DNA of 64,000 bases from an uncultured Clostridia bacterium (GTDB lineage Bacteria; Bacillota; Clostridia; Oscillospirales; Ruminococcaceae), in assembly GCA_947629335.1 (NCBI GenBank), contig CANRDI010000003.1, forward strand, positions 124,001-188,000, in the 5' to 3' direction. Under the pieces are notes generated by a model, which made no database searches, was not told where the DNA came from, and was given only the letters and a program-made list of their open reading frames with translations. A program made the translations under genes and the position numbers. Numbering within the stretch: position 1 is the stretch's first letter; every line of letters begins with the position of its first letter. Shown here in pieces: positions 34,340-41,323 of this stretch.

Positions 34340-34858
34340 ATGGATAATATCTGCGAACAGCTTGTTGTAAAGGCAAGAACGGTCTCGGACAGAATAAAGG
34401 CTGTGCTTATCATAGTAGGCTTGGCGGTAGTTTCGGCGGGGCTGTTGTTTCTGGCTTTGGCGACAGGGTTTCTGGCGTTTTTGCTGATTGCGGGCGCTGC
34501 GGTGGTTGGGGGCGTTTACCTGCTGAGCGGTCTGGACGTTGAGTATGAGTATATCATTACAAACAACGAGCTTGATATTGACAAGATCATCGGCAGGAGA
34601 AAAAGAAAACGTATGATTACCGTTGACCTTTCCTGTACGGAAGATTTTTGTGTGTATCCTTTAAAATCCGAGCCGGAGGTCGACGCTACGGTACACGCTT
34701 CTACGGGGCTTGAAAAAGACGCGAGGTATCTGTATGTAAACCATAAAGATTACGGAAAGGTTGGCGTAATCTTTAATCCGAACAAAAAAATAAGGGAGGC
34801 AATCGTGCGCGAGTTTCCGAGCCCTCTCCGCGCGAAATTGGAAGAAGATGTCAAGTAA
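34340..34858 (+). CDS. Two-helix membrane protein with cytoplasmic domain
   Basis: This 172-residue protein has two membrane helices (about 20-40 and 42-62) followed by a soluble domain that opens with LDVEYEYIITNNELDIDKIIGRRKRKRM. That layout is seen in widely distributed clostridial hypothetical proteins (from memory, DUF6106-like); no biochemical function is known to me. The gene overlaps the start of the AcpS-like gene by 11 bases, so the two are translated together. Confidence 0.75.
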   Translation: MDNICEQLVVKARTVSDRIKAVLIIVGLAVVSAGLLFLALATGFLAFLLIAGAAVVGGVYLLSGLDVEYEYIITNNELDIDKIIGRRKRKRMITVDLSCTEDFCVYPLKSEPEVDATVHASTGLEKDARYLYVNHKDYGKVGVIFNPNKKIREAIVREFPSPLRAKLEEDVK

Positions 34859-35225
34859 TATTTTTATACGGACAGGAACCGCAATAATTGAAATAGACAG
34901 AATTGTAAAAAGTCAGAAAAACAAGAGGTTTCTCTCCGACTATTTTTCGCCCGACGAGATAAGATTTTTTGTACAGCATAAGCTCAATCCGAAACTTATT
35001 GCCGAGAACTATTGTGTAAAGATAGCGCTGGCTAAAGCAATCGGTACGGGAATGAGGCTTATCTATGCAAAGGATATTTCCGTGCTTCGTGACAGGCTCG
35101 GCTCGCCGATCATTATTTTGGACGGAAGAGCGAAGATGCTTGAACAGCGCGAGGGGTATGTGGTGAACATATCGGTTTCGAGCTGTAAGGAATATGCGAC
35201 GGCGAGCGTTGTCATAAATAAATAA
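34848..35225 (+). CDS. AcpS-like protein lacking the usual metal ligands
   Basis: This 125-residue protein has the length and order of motifs of holo-[acyl-carrier-protein] synthase: G-T-A-I-I-E-I-D-R-I near the start, RFLSDYFSPDEIRFF, NYCVKIALAKAIGTG in the middle and VNISVSSCKEYATASVV at the end. In active AcpS the first motif reads G-x-D-I-x-E-I and the middle one has KEAxxKA; here the Asp is Ala and the Glu is Ile, so both Mg ligands are missing. CoA or carrier-protein binding without catalysis is possible. It is translationally coupled to an upstream membrane protein. The family call is likely; the loss of activity is inferred. Confidence 0.65.
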   Translation: MSSNIFIRTGTAIIEIDRIVKSQKNKRFLSDYFSPDEIRFFVQHKLNPKLIAENYCVKIALAKAIGTGMRLIYAKDISVLRDRLGSPIIILDGRAKMLEQREGYVVNISVSSCKEYATASVVINK

Positions 35226-35318: not shown

Positions 35319-35354
35319 AAACTTTTCTGAGATGATAAGTACATAGAAAAGTTT
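35319..35354 (+). promoter_or_regulatory. Hairpin leader before the GTPase-nuclease gene
   Basis: A perfect 10-bp stem (aaacttttct with agaaaagttt) with a 16-base loop lies inside a longer imperfect inverted repeat (ggtgtgtcaa near 35298 with ttgatacacc near 35374). A smaller hairpin follows (tctgtc/gacaga, 35388-35406). The gap 35226-35430 has no gene. Known ribosome protection genes are controlled by leader attenuation, so this may be regulatory. Confidence 0.4.
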
Positions 35355-35430
35355 GGTAAACGACATTGATACACCTTTCGTTGTTTGTCTGTCGGGAGCT
35401 GACAGATTAAAAACTATAGGGGGCGGTGTT

Positions 35431-37944
35431 TTGGCAAAGCGATTGGCGGTGAGTATGGCGGCGCATATAGACGCGGGAAAGACCACTTTGTCCGAAGCGC
35501 TTTTATATTATGCGGGCGAAATACGAAAACAGGGCAGAGTAGACAAAGGCGACGCCTTTCTCGACAACGTTTCTCAGGAGCGCTCGCGCGGCATTACGAT
35601 CTATTCAAAACAGGCGCTTCTGCGTCTTGGCGGAGCGGAATTTACGCTTATCGACACTCCCGGACACGCCGATTTCGCGGCTGACGCGGAGAGAGCGTTT
35701 GCGGTATCAGACTGCGCGGTGCTTGTAATAAGCGGCGTTGACGGCGTTCAAAGCAGAACGCGGACTATTCTGCGTATGCTTGAAAGAGCGGAACTGCCGT
35801 TGTTCACATTTGTAAACAAAATGGACATTACGCATAAGACGAAAGCGGAGCTTATTGAAGAACTGACGGCGCTTGACAGGCGTTTTGCGGATTTTTCGGA
35901 AAATATTGCCGAAACTGCCGCGGAATTTGACGAGGAGTGCATGAACAGCCTTTTGGAAAGCGGAAGAGTTCCCGATGAAACAATATCCAAAGCAATAAAA
36001 CGGCGCGGGATATTTCCCGTCGTGTTCGGTTCGGCACTGAAAAACGAGGGCATTGAGAAATTTGCGGAGCTGCTCGGAAAATTTGCCGAACCGAAGGAGT
36101 ATTATGAAGATTTTGCCGCGCAGGTGTTCAAGATAATTGCCGACAAGAACGGCGCTCGTGAAACGCTGATAAAGGTAAACGGCGGCGAACTTCGTGTGAG
36201 ACAGGAGCTGAACGGCGAGAAAATAAGCCGCTTGGGGATATATAACGGCGCGAAATATACACCCGTTGAAGCCGCCGTTCAGGGTCAGCTCTGCGCTGCT
36301 GCGGGACTTACAAAAACCTATGCGGGACAGTGTTTGGGTTCTCAAGATCCCGCAAAAGAGCCTTTGATACATGCTGCGCTTTGCTATAAGGTGATGTTTG
36401 ACGAGAGGATAAATGTTTCGGAAGCATATTCAAAGCTGAAGATACTCGAACAGGAAGACCCCCAGCTTCGTTTTTCGCTTATCCGCGGTGAAATTCATGC
36501 GGAAGTAGTGGGCGAGATACAGCTTGAAATACTTAAAGATGTAATAAAAGACCGCTTCGGGCTTTATGCCGAGTTCGGCGAGGGCAGGATATCCTATATG
36601 GAAACAATTGCAGAAAGCGTTGAGGGCGTAGGTCATTTCGAGCCTTTGAGGCATTATGCCGAGGTACATTTGCTGTTAGAGCCGCTTCCGAGGGGGAGCG
36701 GGGTAGTTTTGGCGTGCGACTGCCGTAATCTTGACGAAAACTACCAACGTCTTATCATGTCTCATCTTAAAGAAAAGCGGCACATCGGCGTTCTCACAGG
36801 TCCTCCGATAACCGACGTAAAAATAACGCTTAAATCGGGTAAAGCTCATTTAAAACATACCGAGGGCGGAGATTTCCGCGAAGCGACCTACCGCGCGGTA
36901 CGTCAGGGATTGGCGTCGGCAAACTCAGTGCTTTTAGAACCGTTTTACGAGTTCTCGCTCGAAATTCCCGAAGAATTTGTCGGTCGTGCAATGACTGACC
37001 TTGAGAGAATGAAAGCGGAATTTTCCTCGCCGCAGATAGTCGGCAAAGCGGCGCTTATAGAGGGAATATGTCCTGTCTCGGAAATGCAGAGCTATCAGAC
37101 GGAAGTTATAGCATATACACGCGGCGAGGGCAGGATATCATGCGGTATAAAAGGATATTTTCCCTGCCACAACGCCGAGGCTGTCATAAAACAGATAGGT
37201 TATGATTTTAACGCAGATGTTGAAAACTCAGCCGACAGCGTTTTTTGCGTTCACGGCGCAGGACATCTTGTAAAGTGGAATGAGGTTTACGAACATATGC
37301 ACCTCGAAAGCATTTTCGCCAAACCCCGCTCCGTCACGGAAAACGAGGTGAACTCGTACAAAGCCCGCGCGGCGACCGACAAAGAGCTTATGGAAATTTT
37401 CGAGCGGACTTACGGAAAGATAAGAAACAGAACGAATACAAACGAGCGCATAGCGATGCGGCGCGACAAGCTGACAGAAAACGCAGATTACAGCCGAAAA
37501 AAGCCTCAGGGCGAGGAATATCTGCTTGTAGACGGGTATAATATCATTTTTGCATGGGACGAGCTAAAAAAAATAGCTGCCGAAAATCTCGACAGCGCAC
37601 GCGTAAAACTTATAAACATTATGTGCAATTATCAGGCGTTTCGCCGCTGCAATCTGATACTTGTTTTCGACGCTTATCGGGTAAAAAGCGACAGGGAGGT
37701 AGAAACGATAGGCGGGATAAACGTTGTTTATACGAAAGAAGCGGAAACTGCCGACGCGTTTATTGAAAAGACCGCGCATAAACTCGGACGAGAAAACCGC
37801 GTAAGAGTAGCGACAAACGACGGTCTTGAACAGCTTATTATAATCGGAAGCGGCGCGCAGCGCGTTTCCTCGGAAATATTCAGGCTTGAGGTAGACGAGG
37901 TTGAGCGGAATATAAGAGAAATCCTTGAAAAAATAAATAAGTAG
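35431..37944 (+). CDS. TetM/EF-G-like GTPase fused to a YacP/Rae1 NYN endoribonuclease domain
   Basis: This 837-residue fusion begins with a TetM/EF-G type translational GTPase: AHIDAGKTT at residues 11-19, switch II IDTPGHADF, NKMD for guanine recognition, then EF-G-like domains II-V to about residue 650. Residues about 690-837 are a complete YacP (Rae1) domain: LLVDGYNIIFAW, LILVFDAY, TKEAETADAFIEK and VATNDGLEQ retain the acidic NYN residues. In Bacillus, Rae1 is a stand-alone ribosome-bound endoribonuclease that cuts mRNA in the A-site, exactly where TetM and EF-G bind. The TetM domain IV loop that displaces tetracycline (SPVSTPADF-like) is replaced by HTEGGDF, so resistance is doubtful. 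Start is TTG 35431 after AGGGGG; a longer TTG frame (35353) lacks a ribosome binding site. trmO follows 8 bases downstream. Confidence 0.88.
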   Translation: MAKRLAVSMAAHIDAGKTTLSEALLYYAGEIRKQGRVDKGDAFLDNVSQERSRGITIYSKQALLRLGGAEFTLIDTPGHADFAADAERAFAVSDCAVLVISGVDGVQSRTRTILRMLERAELPLFTFVNKMDITHKTKAELIEELTALDRRFADFSENIAETAAEFDEECMNSLLESGRVPDETISKAIKRRGIFPVVFGSALKNEGIEKFAELLGKFAEPKEYYEDFAAQVFKIIADKNGARETLIKVNGGELRVRQELNGEKISRLGIYNGAKYTPVEAAVQGQLCAAAGLTKTYAGQCLGSQDPAKEPLIHAALCYKVMFDERINVSEAYSKLKILEQEDPQLRFSLIRGEIHAEVVGEIQLEILKDVIKDRFGLYAEFGEGRISYMETIAESVEGVGHFEPLRHYAEVHLLLEPLPRGSGVVLACDCRNLDENYQRLIMSHLKEKRHIGVLTGPPITDVKITLKSGKAHLKHTEGGDFREATYRAVRQGLASANSVLLEPFYEFSLEIPEEFVGRAMTDLERMKAEFSSPQIVGKAALIEGICPVSEMQSYQTEVIAYTRGEGRISCGIKGYFPCHNAEAVIKQIGYDFNADVENSADSVFCVHGAGHLVKWNEVYEHMHLESIFAKPRSVTENEVNSYKARAATDKELMEIFERTYGKIRNRTNTNERIAMRRDKLTENADYSRKKPQGEEYLLVDGYNIIFAWDELKKIAAENLDSARVKLINIMCNYQAFRRCNLILVFDAYRVKSDREVETIGGINVVYTKEAETADAFIEKTAHKLGRENRVRVATNDGLEQLIIIGSGAQRVSSEIFRLEVDEVERNIREILEKINK

Positions 37945-37952
37945 GAGCCGGA

Positions 37953-38648
37953 ATGAATATAGAACCGATCGCGCATATTGAAAACGATTTTTCGGAAAAA
38001 TTCGGCATACCGCGGCAAAGCGGGATATGTGAACTTTTTTCGACAATAATTTTTGAGCAGCCATACCGCGACAAAAACGCGCTTCGCGGACTTGAAGAGT
38101 TTACGCATATCTGGCTTATCTGGGGATTTTCCGAGGCAGTATGCGAGGGATTTTCCCCGACGGTACGTCCACCGAGGCTTGGCGGGAATGTGAGAAAAGG
38201 CGTATTTGCAACGCGTTCGCCGTTCAGACCTAATTCATTAGGATTGAGCGCGGTTAAGATCGAGGATATAAAGGACGATTGCAGGATAATTGTCAGCGGG
38301 GCGGATCTTATGAGCGGAACGCCTATATATGACATAAAGCCTTATCTCAGTTATGCGGACAGTATACCGGGCGCGTCGAACGGCTGGGCGGAGGAATTTG
38401 TCGGGAAAACGCTTTCGGTGGAGTTTCCGAAGGAACTTCTTGGGAAAATTCCCGAAGAAAAGCGCAGAGGGCTTTTGCAGACGCTTGCACAAGACCCGCG
38501 CCCTCAGTATCAGGACAACCCCGAAAGAATTTATACAATGACATTCGCTGGGTATCAGGTAAGTTTCAGAGTGAAAGAGAATGTCGTTACGGTAACAGGG
38601 GTCTTTGACAGCGGCTCGGAGGAAACGGAGAAGATGAACAGCATTTGA
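37953..38648 (+). CDS. trmO: tRNA (N6-threonylcarbamoyladenosine(37)-N6)-methyltransferase TrmO
   Basis: This 231-residue protein of the TsaA/TrmO (UPF0066) family adds a methyl group to t6A at position 37 of threonine tRNAs using SAM. Visible hallmarks are FTHIWLIWGFSE, GGNVRKGVFATRSPFRPNSLGLSAV and DIKPYLSYADSI, with a C-terminal extension typical of bacterial TrmO. It lies 8 bases after the GTPase-nuclease gene with AGGAG upstream, so a translation-related gene is co-expressed with a ribosome-acting fusion protein. Confidence 0.93.
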   Translation: MNIEPIAHIENDFSEKFGIPRQSGICELFSTIIFEQPYRDKNALRGLEEFTHIWLIWGFSEAVCEGFSPTVRPPRLGGNVRKGVFATRSPFRPNSLGLSAVKIEDIKDDCRIIVSGADLMSGTPIYDIKPYLSYADSIPGASNGWAEEFVGKTLSVEFPKELLGKIPEEKRRGLLQTLAQDPRPQYQDNPERIYTMTFAGYQVSFRVKENVVTVTGVFDSGSEETEKMNSI

Positions 38649-39049: not shown

Positions 39050-41323
39050 ATGGATATTGAAAAACAGATAGAATGGCTTAAACCCGACAGGATTTTAAAG
39101 CTGTACGACGGCGAAAAAAATATGCTCGGAATGACGCGGCTTTTTATTGTCGGCATAGGAAAAAACGGCATAGATTGCCTTATGAGAGCAAAGGATATTG
39201 CCGAAAACCGTTTCAGTGCCGAAACAGACAGGATACGCTATTTCGCTTTCGGATTCGGCGAGGATACGGAAAACGCGCAGTTCCGCGGTTCTGAGCTTTC
39301 CGAAAGAGAACGCGTGTCGGTATCTGCCGAAGACGCGATCTTCAAATATCTCGATAATCCCGATCTGCTGTCGCCGTTTGCGCTCGAATGGTTCGATATG
39401 AACCTTAAAAATTATTCGCAGAACACCCCGTCATACGGGCTTTGGAAGCGCCAGTGCGGAAGGGTCGCGCTGTTCCATTATATTGACGAGATAATTTCAA
39501 AGCTCACTATGGTGATAAACGACTTTTCAAAGTCCGATTCTCCCCTTGAAATAATTCTGACGGGAAATATGGGCGATATGCTCTTTTCGGGAACGATCGT
39601 CGATTTGGGATATATCCTTAAAGAAATGTTTTCGGGACTTGGTACATATCAGGTAAAGGTAAACGCGCTTATGTTCGCGGGTGATACCGCGCAGCTTTTT
39701 GAAACGGACGCGCGTAATCTTGCAAATTATTATGCCTATACGATATTGACCAAAAACGATATCGACAAGTTTCAGTGCAAGAAAACCCCTTTCTCCCAGA
39801 AATATACGAACAGTTTTGAGATAAAGTCCGACAAGCCCCCGTTCAACGCATGCTTCATAGCAAGCGGAGAGGACAGCTACGAGCTTACGCTCAGAAAAGC
39901 TGCCGAAAAAATCATATCTGCGGCGGAGTTTATTTATAAGAAAGACGACAATGCCGACAGGGCTATGTCCTTTAATCTGCTTGACCAGGGCGGAAACCAT
40001 TCGTTCAGTTATCTTGCATATGACATAAAAGGCGTCGAGATACCGCTCGGAGAGATCGTTTCATATCTTTCCGTAAGGTTTTTCGTTAAGCTCAGTGAAA
40101 ATCTCAGACGAAATTTTGTAGACGATCTCCGCCTTTCCGTTTATGCGGGCAAGGTGTCTCCCGAAGCGACATTTCTTGCGTCAAGAGCGGGAACTGTCCC
40201 CAGACTTGAGTTTAATGAAACGCTTAATCCCCTTTTTAGCATAAATTCCCTCAAAAAGGGCGGAGAAGCGTCAAAGCGTTATGTTATCGAAAGAATAGAT
40301 GAAATAGCTCGGCTCACGGAAAAAGGCGCGGAAATGGCGCTCGACGATATTGCCGCGGAAATAGAAAACGCTTGTTTGAATGCTCTTACGGATATTGAAC
40401 AGGGACCGTTCTGTGCGGAGGAAATCATGAGAAAATGCCTGAAATCGCTTGCAAACGAGATTAAAAAGGCAAAAGAACTTCAAGAGGACAGCGAGGGGAA
40501 CGTCACACGTCGGGAAAAACTTATGCAGTCCGACTATCGCAAGTTCAAATCTACTCCGGGATTTATGGCAGGCACAGCAAAAAGATATTACATTCAGACG
40601 CTTACGGATTATGCGGAGTGTCTTAAAATTCATAAAACCGTCGGAACGATGCTGAATTTTTATATGCGGCTTCAGGACAGACTTACGGTTTTCAAAAATG
40701 AAAAACTTGATCCGAAAGTTGAGATATTCGCTCTCGAACAGAAGGATTTTATGGAAAAACTTAATACTGACGGCGAAGAAGGATGCGTTACGAGTGCGTT
40801 CAGGATAAACTCTCCGGAAATGATAGAAAAGCTCGACAAACTTATAAGCGAGATACCGGAAACGACAAAAAATCTTGCATTTAAGAAAATGCGGCTTGAA
40901 ACGGACGACGATCCGAAAACGCTTCCGAGGGAGATAATAAACCTTGCGGCAAAATGTTTCGGGAGATTTCTGCTTATGGGATTTAACGATTTCTGCGAGT
41001 TCTTTTGCTCGGACAATTCGCTTATGAAATCCATACAGCATTGTTTTGATACGGCAGAGATAAAAACCCCCGCAGACGGCGAAACGCTTACCCGCGCTAT
41101 CTGCCCGCAAAATGTACAGCAGGGCGACATTGCCCCGATAAAGGCTTCGCATAAAGGAGCAAACTATACCTGGAACGGCTCGCCGATGTTTAACGCGGTC
41201 ATAGTTGTACAGACCAAAAACGGCGTACAGCTTAACAAGTTCAAGGATTATAACCAGTGGGAAAATATGCGCTATGCTTTTGTGAACGACGGTCTTAAAA
41301 AGCAGGGTATAAAGATTTTTTAG
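39050..41323 (+). CDS. Large protein resembling the bacterial tubulin-like (Tubulin_2) family
   Basis: This 757-residue protein has no membrane helix. It opens with RLFIVGIGKNGIDCLMRAKDI (about 30-50), reminiscent of the glycine-rich LFIGLGGTGxxxLLRLK start of Tubulin_2 proteins, and continues with FDMNLKNY...YGLWKRQCGRVALF, where such proteins have G-A-G-x-x-R-x-x-G-R-L-x-L-F. The glycine loop is degenerate. The second half is helical and charged. The next gene encodes a transglutaminase-type membrane protein 25 bases downstream. From memory, similar pairs occur in Clostridia next to von Willebrand or transglutaminase proteins. Function unknown; a scaffold or filament-like role is only a guess. 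The ATG has GGGGGT upstream. Confidence 0.55.
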   Translation: MDIEKQIEWLKPDRILKLYDGEKNMLGMTRLFIVGIGKNGIDCLMRAKDIAENRFSAETDRIRYFAFGFGEDTENAQFRGSELSERERVSVSAEDAIFKYLDNPDLLSPFALEWFDMNLKNYSQNTPSYGLWKRQCGRVALFHYIDEIISKLTMVINDFSKSDSPLEIILTGNMGDMLFSGTIVDLGYILKEMFSGLGTYQVKVNALMFAGDTAQLFETDARNLANYYAYTILTKNDIDKFQCKKTPFSQKYTNSFEIKSDKPPFNACFIASGEDSYELTLRKAAEKIISAAEFIYKKDDNADRAMSFNLLDQGGNHSFSYLAYDIKGVEIPLGEIVSYLSVRFFVKLSENLRRNFVDDLRLSVYAGKVSPEATFLASRAGTVPRLEFNETLNPLFSINSLKKGGEASKRYVIERIDEIARLTEKGAEMALDDIAAEIENACLNALTDIEQGPFCAEEIMRKCLKSLANEIKKAKELQEDSEGNVTRREKLMQSDYRKFKSTPGFMAGTAKRYYIQTLTDYAECLKIHKTVGTMLNFYMRLQDRLTVFKNEKLDPKVEIFALEQKDFMEKLNTDGEEGCVTSAFRINSPEMIEKLDKLISEIPETTKNLAFKKMRLETDDDPKTLPREIINLAAKCFGRFLLMGFNDFCEFFCSDNSLMKSIQHCFDTAEIKTPADGETLTRAICPQNVQQGDIAPIKASHKGANYTWNGSPMFNAVIVVQTKNGVQLNKFKDYNQWENMRYAFVNDGLKKQGIKIF

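Follow-up and report, generated by a model that had tools for sequence, protein, structure and literature searches.

What does a protein do that carries, in a single chain, a GTPase of the EF-G/TetM type and a nuclease of the YacP/Rae1 type? The question is raised by a gene of an uncultured bacterium of the class Clostridia (Oscillospirales, Ruminococcaceae), which lies in a stretch of 64,000 nucleotides of contig CANRDI010000003.1 (assembly GCA_947629335.1, positions 124,001 to 188,000 of the forward strand), referred to here as the window. Our reading, for which we consider the case to be evenly balanced, is that the product is a ribosome-directed endoribonuclease in which the GTPase would have taken over targeting from the C-terminal tail of Rae1 and would tether an mRNA endonuclease near the ribosomal A site.

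The architecture as such has been known from print since 2015. The passages of Atkinson et al. (2015) available to us (BMC Genomics 16:78, PMC4342817) describe Tet proteins from ten Clostridiales species to which a YacP-like NYN domain is joined, the same single-frame arrangement with a Tet-type GTPase as in the window protein, likewise from Clostridia, and propose for them a resistance mechanism or an ability to act as an rRNA RNase; distribution, mutual exclusion, tail loss and unfused sister proteins are absent from these passages. What appears to be new here is the distribution of the fusion, its near-exclusion with stand-alone Rae1, the constraint on both active sites, the loop typical of the GTPase subfamily, and the erosion of the Rae1 tail. 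The Rae1 paper (Leroy) reportedly dates from 2017, after the description of the fused Tet proteins. No functional study of a GTPase-NYN fusion was found among the open-access full texts searched, which were covered in part, in line with what the first-pass annotation of the gene had stated.

Architecture and conservation of the fused protein

The gene had been read in the first-pass annotation as a TetM/EF-G-type GTPase joined to a YacP/Rae1 NYN domain, and both this reading and the placement of the gene were borne out by Pfam and by the B. subtilis structures (Table 1). The frame is intact and starts with TTG. The longest possible start would give 863 residues (35353-37944), and the 837-residue form was preferred because AGGGGGCGG precedes the TTG codon and the aligned N-termini of 19 relatives fit it. 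The Pfam search was run on the 863-residue frame, and residue numbers follow the 837-residue form. All four matches (GTP_EFTU, EFG_IV, EFG_C, and NYN_YacP) lie above their gathering cut-offs, and the C-terminal part is a clear match to the Rae1 family (PF05991, 158.6 bits against a cut-off of 24.6). Domains II and III are below Pfam detection in the window protein, in which the G domain and domains IV and V were detected; among unfused relatives of the GTPase, domain III reached Pfam in L191 and domain II in L206. The G domain contains the G1 motif AHIDAGKT (residues 11-18), RGIT (53-56), DTPGH (75-79), and NKMD (129-132). Rae1/YacP of B. subtilis (5mq8, 5mq9) aligns to residues 697-835 (about 1e-24) over 139 query residues (7-145), and its aspartates are kept as D701, D747, D775, and D797, which we take to be the catalytic ones of the family.

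Together with the window protein, 102 fusions from other loci gave an alignment of 103 distinct proteins, and because of these further loci an assembly artefact is excluded. The four NYN aspartates are invariant in all 103 fusions, so the earlier claim that the acidic residues are retained holds across the set. The GTPase residues K17, D75, K130, and D132 are also present in 103/103, and H79 in 102/103; DSGK replaces DAGK in 15 fusions. Both active sites appear to be under strong constraint. Among the stretches compared, domain IV is the most conserved (mean majority frequency 0.80 over residues 385-500), each position of its HTEGGDF tip loop being kept in at least 94 of the 103 proteins, and the linker is the least conserved (mean 0.26). 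The linker measures 64-148 residues (median 80) between the equivalents of H624 and L698, and it includes a conserved stretch at residues 650-662 (window 37378-37416, DKELMEIFERTYG), in which E652 occurs in 95 and I656 in 94 of the 103 fusions and T660 is conserved as well. The unfused GTPases that were read end before this stretch. As a separate observation, two fusions of one family (L044 and L048, family f77) have the tip replaced by YTDGTAL and YTDEIAL, respectively, with the NYN aspartates and the GTP-binding motifs intact.

Stand-alone Rae1, the fusion, and the C-terminal tail

The fusion is the single NYN_YacP match of its own genome. Within the order, 197 genomes were sampled, and a single match was obtained in each of 60 of them. 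Of these 60 matches, 57 are located in open frames of at least 833 residues, the other three being in frames of 465, 478, and 160 residues. The class sample yielded a match in 249 of 391 genomes, exactly one in 244 of the 249, and the phylum sample in 208 of 398, two genomes having two. Frame length was used as a proxy for fusion. Among the 150 class matches listed, 78 (from 77 genomes) lie in frames of at least 800 residues, 63 in frames of at most 269 residues, and 9 in between; only G713 has both the long and the short frame type, the two long frames of G519 are two fused copies, and the second matches of G522, G584, and G625 lie outside the class rows listed. The proxy held when checked: 19 of 19 loci picked by frame length alone were one frame with both parts and matched the fusion, and the GTPase part matched within a long frame in all 39 class genomes with such frames that were checked. 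The 103 aligned fusions were selected for matching both parts and cannot themselves give the fusion rate among long frames. Fused and stand-alone Rae1 seldom co-occur and come near to mutual exclusion, and where the fusion occurs, it probably stands in for stand-alone Rae1.

The record titles of the best 80 named relatives include Oscillospiraceae, Lachnospiraceae, Holdemania, Massilimicrobiota, Fusibacter, and Anaerovorax, and the nearest relative among those listed is from an Oscillospiraceae metagenome-assembled genome (MAG), with 61-62% identity. One fusion (L141) comes from a MAG titled Thermoflexaceae and filed under Chloroflexota, yet falls amid Lachnospiraceae fusions, which is probably a naming matter. 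The Rae1 gene of B. subtilis lies beside mrnC and rlmB, a context that is not strictly defining. This adjacency was seen for the stand-alone gene of G713 (L204; names from translations); in the window's own genome, about 137 kb of the same contig separate rlmB from the only NYN gene, which thus lacks the mrnC/rlmB context.

The YacP domain had been called complete, which is right for the catalytic part, but the C-terminal tail of Rae1 is absent. The NYN_YacP match spans positions 1-142 of the 166 profile positions, so that the C-terminal end of the profile is missing. The window protein has 40 residues past the last catalytic aspartate, no residues at positions 162 and 165, and no EKxRR-type tail, whereas B. 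subtilis Rae1, a stand-alone protein of 170 residues (plus the additions of the crystallised chain), ends in an EKxRR tail. Past the last catalytic aspartate, stand-alone Rae1 proteins have 64-68 residues (49 of 50 rows measured) and fusions 36-87 (101 of 103 measured), with fewer than 50 in 34 fusions, 50-59 in 16, and at least 60 in 51. The motif needed for this measurement was missing in L154 and L155 (fused) and L026 (stand-alone), and L086 was excluded; L072 was counted as stand-alone for tail length, and not for end pattern, alignment, or thinning.

An EKxRR-type end, defined as the pattern hydrophobic-x-x-hydrophobic-K/R-K/R/H within the last 20 residues, was found in 47 of the 49 stand-alone proteins and in 9 of the 103 fusions, and after thinning at 70% identity in 32 of 34 and 9 of 90, respectively. 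The 49 stand-alone rows were taken from the best-scoring matches of the phylum and class samples, a choice that favours full-length domains, and 20 lower-scoring ones were added as a check. These have 63-71 residues past the aspartate (19 measured) and the end pattern in 14 of 20, which brings the pooled stand-alone count to 61/69 as compared with 9/103 for the fusions. In the alignment, E162 is kept in 46/49 stand-alone and 25/103 fused proteins and R165 in 44/49 and 14/103, the counts in these tail columns being uncertain because the fusion tails are divergent. Within the order of the window, the profile match of the 57 long frames stops at position 135-161. The tail was lost in some lineages, and in others its length was retained without the basic end. 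To explain the short-tail state among the fusions, the tree needs a minimum of 13 changes, which fits a relaxed constraint on the tail. R166 of B. subtilis Rae1 falls within the EKxRR-type motif, and R166P is listed among efp suppressors taken as loss of function in B. subtilis, in the part of PMC6613710 available to us. We infer that the tail may help Rae1 to reach the ribosome and that the GTPase may have taken over this role.

The origin of the fusion was examined with trees of both parts. A first GTPase tree was made without 16 fusions (the 15 with DSGK, and L130) and L191, all removed by a motif filter, and without five partial or unrelated GTPase frames. In this tree the fused proteins occupy one side of a branch, 87 against 19, with support 83, which is below the starred level. 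When more unfused proteins were included, the free search mixed a few of them into the fused ones, and a single fused clade received p-AU values (approximately unbiased test) of 0.796 and 0.701; the unfused L191 was placed within the fused proteins with weak support, and constraining the fused proteins together gave a better likelihood. A single origin of the fusion is not rejected and not proven by these trees, and the NYN domain may have been lost again later. In the NYN tree, made without the stand-alone rows L021, L056, and L062 (short matches) and without identical cores, 45 of 47 stand-alone domains are on one side (support 97), and 106 fused domains and two exceptions are on the other. 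One exception, L086, is from a locus that also holds an unjoined GTPase frame. The other, L072, is a stand-alone NYN protein of G626 (L203 5787-6308), a genome that encodes an unfused HTxGGDF GTPase elsewhere (L206 5987-7936), and the pair is possibly the later split of a former fusion.

The GTPase subfamily and the question of drug protection

The main rival to our reading, one that we hold to be unlikely, takes up the suggestion of Atkinson et al. (2015) that the protein mainly protects against tetracycline, or against another drug of the A site, with the nuclease as an accessory. The best NCBIfam model of the window protein is indeed tet_protect (NF012153), although its score of 356.2 bits is far under the curated cut-off of 775; two unfused relatives reach 378 and 408 bits, and another fusion 398. 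The first-pass statement that annotation as a resistance gene would mislead is unproven, as the subfamily may protect against drugs despite scores of this kind. The annotation of one unfused relative places it in the TetM/TetW/TetO/TetS family. A chromosomal TetM-like protein of B. toyonensis (Btoyo_0322), which may or may not belong to the subfamily described here, does confer resistance: its knockout lowered the minimum inhibitory concentration from 16 to 1 ug/ml, according to the part of PMC5209696 that was consulted.

The tip of domain IV speaks against drug protection. Pro509 of TetM sits in the tetracycline site, and TetM-type factors bind the A site (PMC8161019, consulted in part). In the alignment, HTEGGDF occupies the place of SPVSTPADF of TetM and offers no counterpart to Pro509. 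The first-pass annotation was right in noting that the loop is altered, but the loop gives no support to the nuclease idea: because unfused GTPases have HTxGGDF too, it is a mark of the subfamily. Tet(M), Tet(O), and Tet(S) have an EF-G-like domain order, which the window protein may share in full, and about 26-29% identity to it over residues 3-578; they differ in the tip, in the C-terminal extension, residues 581-628 of the window protein not being shared by the Tet rows compared, and in forming a separate clade, and the window protein scores below the curated cut-offs. In the first GTPase tree, a branch with support 100 parts the fused and unfused proteins together from EF-G, Tet(M)/(O)/(S), and an otr(A) relative, with long-branch warnings. 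The GTPase part belongs to a subfamily of its own, apart from TetM-type proteins.

Gene context and mobility point the same way. A drug-responsive leader was considered and rejected: a hairpin followed by a T-run was present upstream of 27 of the 72 codirectional fusion genes and 3 of the 19 divergent ones, as compared with 47 of 159 and 18 of 79 other genes of the same loci, so there was no attenuator excess before divergent genes (ten loci with short flanks and two without an upstream gene were excluded). The fusion is rare on plasmid and viral records. Among 1209 matching plasmid records, the match extends over at least 80% of the protein in only 2, one of them being a 518-kb Monoglobus replicon, and one scan of 49 viral-contig loci found no NYN match. 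A separate RPP-like protein of 643 residues (ribosomal protection protein; 31% identity) is encoded in 2 of 40 fusion genomes at an E-value limit of 1e-60 (G440, C1:195758-197584; G536, C1:192011-193837). None of this evidence, from Pro509 and the scores to the attenuator scan and the rarity on mobile elements, is conclusive.

The unfused relatives that were read, among them WP_255820668.1 and proteins of G335, G572, G529, G590, and G424, have in common the HTxGGDF tip and a long C-terminal extension of the same kind. They are 42-45% identical to the window protein over residues of about 3-629, measure about 640-730 residues, and have no NYN domain. WP_255820668.1 is encoded on a plasmid of Ligilactobacillus salivarius. 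For stand-alone Rae1, 40 genomes were searched for an accompanying unfused GTPase; three proved to bear the fusion, and 8 of the remaining 37, with stand-alone Rae1 only, have such a relative (40-45% identity). Seven of these eight proteins match residues of about 2-614 in one piece, and that of G632 matches in two. Unfused relatives were also found in 3 of 37 genomes without any NYN_YacP match (20 each from 190 such genomes of the phylum sample and 142 of the class sample, three being shared), a point in favour of drug protection. A dependence of the GTPase on Rae1, which was considered as well, is not supported by these three genomes. At an E-value threshold of 1e-60, none of 40 fusion genomes (39 of the 77 genomes of the class list, and the window's own) has an unfused member besides the fusion.

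The unfused proteins also bear on a second rival, in which the polypeptide has two independent functions, the usual one of Rae1 and that of an EF-G-like helper, with no mechanistic coupling between them. The occurrence of the unfused GTPase both with and without Rae1 fits this explanation, as do the length and poor conservation of the linker and the pair of G626, in which an unfused GTPase coexists with a stand-alone NYN domain that groups with the fused ones. Against it, the fusion persists at 42-61% identity to the window protein with both active sites intact, the Rae1 tail is eroded mainly in fusions, and the linker holds a conserved stretch. We regard independence of the two parts as less likely.

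Genomic neighbourhood and proposed mechanism

The coordinates of the gene, its parts, and the adjoining gene are given in Table 1. TrmO starts 8 bases past the stop codon of the fusion and is probably co-transcribed with it. When 1060 neighbour proteins of the 103 loci were clustered, no conserved operon partner was found; the largest clusters were response regulators (24 loci) and ABC ATPases (18), with identities assigned by reading, and TrmO lies downstream of the fusion in 4 of 103 loci. Two further genes of the window were observed. Upstream of the fusion, with a gap of 205 bases, lies a gene for a divergent AcpS-like phosphopantetheinyl transferase (34848-35225, plus strand; ACPS 5.9e-8; acpS TIGR00516, 61.7 bits against a cut-off of 59.8), and downstream of TrmO a gene encodes a 757-residue protein with a tubulin-like Tubulin_2 domain (39050-41323, plus strand; 1.9e-16).

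Table 1. Positions in the window of the fusion gene, its predicted parts, and the downstream gene.
Feature	Position	Strand	Basis
Probable ribosome-binding site AGGGGGCGG and TTG start (35431-35433)	35418..35433	+	Sequence reading; aligned N-termini of relatives
Whole fusion gene, 837 residues and stop	35431..37944	+	Open reading frame, Pfam, alignment
G domain (GTP_EFTU), residues 5-218	35443..36084	+	Pfam 2.3e-47
EF-G/TetM domain IV, residues 385-498	36583..36924	+	Pfam EFG_IV 1.3e-15
Domain IV tip loop H476-TEGGD-F482 (HTEGGDF, residues 476-482)	36856..36876	+	Alignment
EF-G domain V, residues 500-582	36928..37176	+	Pfam EFG_C 1.5e-17
C-terminal extension, residues 581-628, GY..CHN...GYD...SVFC.HGAG..VKW..V..MH	37171..37314	+	Alignment with relatives
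Variable linker, residues 629-690	37315..37500	+	Alignment of 103 fusions
NYN_YacP (Rae1-like) nuclease domain, residues 698-836	37522..37938	+	Pfam 1.9e-46; 5mq8/5mq9
TrmO (tRNA N6-methyltransferase) gene	37953..38648	+	TrmO_N 2e-41

The tRNA methyltransferase gene adjoining the fusion would suit a third rival, in which the NYN domain cuts rRNA or tRNA and not mRNA, serving for instance rRNA maturation or a GTPase-guided disposal of ribosomes, and an earlier proposal for YacP NYN domains in this direction is cited in the passages of PMC4342817 available to us. The scarcity of the TrmO neighbour among the loci argues against it, and so does the close relative Rae1, which is called a ribosomal A-site endoribonuclease in the consulted part of PMC6613710, where stalling is considered as a condition that may favour its access. 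Such a substrate is in our judgement improbable.

Under the reading that we favour, that of a ribosome-directed endoribonuclease, the GTPase would bind ribosomes with an empty or blocked A site, at this site and at the factor site, and the C-terminal extension and the long flexible linker would carry the Rae1-type NYN nuclease, which would cut mRNA at or near the A-site codon. Domain IV of EF-G and TetM occupies the A site, and because it fills this site the nuclease can act only before or after it. A GTP-controlled hand-over on the linker of 64-148 residues is proposed for this reason, and the first-pass idea that the GTPase brings the nuclease exactly to its place of action was too strong. 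The C-terminal extension of TetM touches A1492/A1493 at the decoding centre, where the tether would then start. The ribosome on the cut mRNA would then be rescued by tmRNA, which is present in the window's own genome.

Several points weigh against this proposal. The motif at the end of stand-alone Rae1 is less universal than the best-scoring rows suggest, as 6 of the 20 lower-scoring proteins are without it, and R166 itself is below 85% among the 49 rows. Tails of at least 60 residues are kept in 51 of 101 fusions, and many class fusions outside the window's order match the profile to positions 162-166, truncation being typical of that order. The GTPase also functions independently, because unfused relatives occur in genomes free of NYN_YacP as well as in genomes with stand-alone Rae1 only. 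With domain IV in the A site, the Rae1-like domain and the GTPase could not dock at the same time, the linker between them is a long and variable one, and no conserved gene partner supports any pathway. Ribosome binding, nuclease activity, and GTP dependence are predictions, and the ribosomal state recognised, the mRNA substrate, the GTP-controlled hand-over, and the docking role of the tail are likewise our inferences from sequence.

In eukaryotic no-go decay, the Hbs1 GTPase acts with Dom34, and the endonuclease Cue2/NONU-1 is a separate protein. The likeness to the fusion, a GTPase and an A-site mRNA endonuclease on stalled ribosomes, is one of logic only, the proteins being unrelated. A bolder version of our proposal, which we put forward tentatively, is that the fusion may be a one-protein bacterial counterpart of this system: the GTPase would find a blocked A site and open it, and GTP hydrolysis would hand the codon to the tethered nuclease. 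Such a protein would have replaced stand-alone Rae1 in much of the Clostridia and made its targeting tail dispensable.

The loss of the EKxRR-type tail offers a direct test of the route by which Rae1 reaches the ribosome. Many of the Clostridia sampled have the Rae1 nuclease only in fused form. If the proposal is true, a GTPase would be in charge of mRNA decay on their stalled ribosomes, and some genes annotated as tetracycline resistance in gut genomes would be mRNA quality-control factors.

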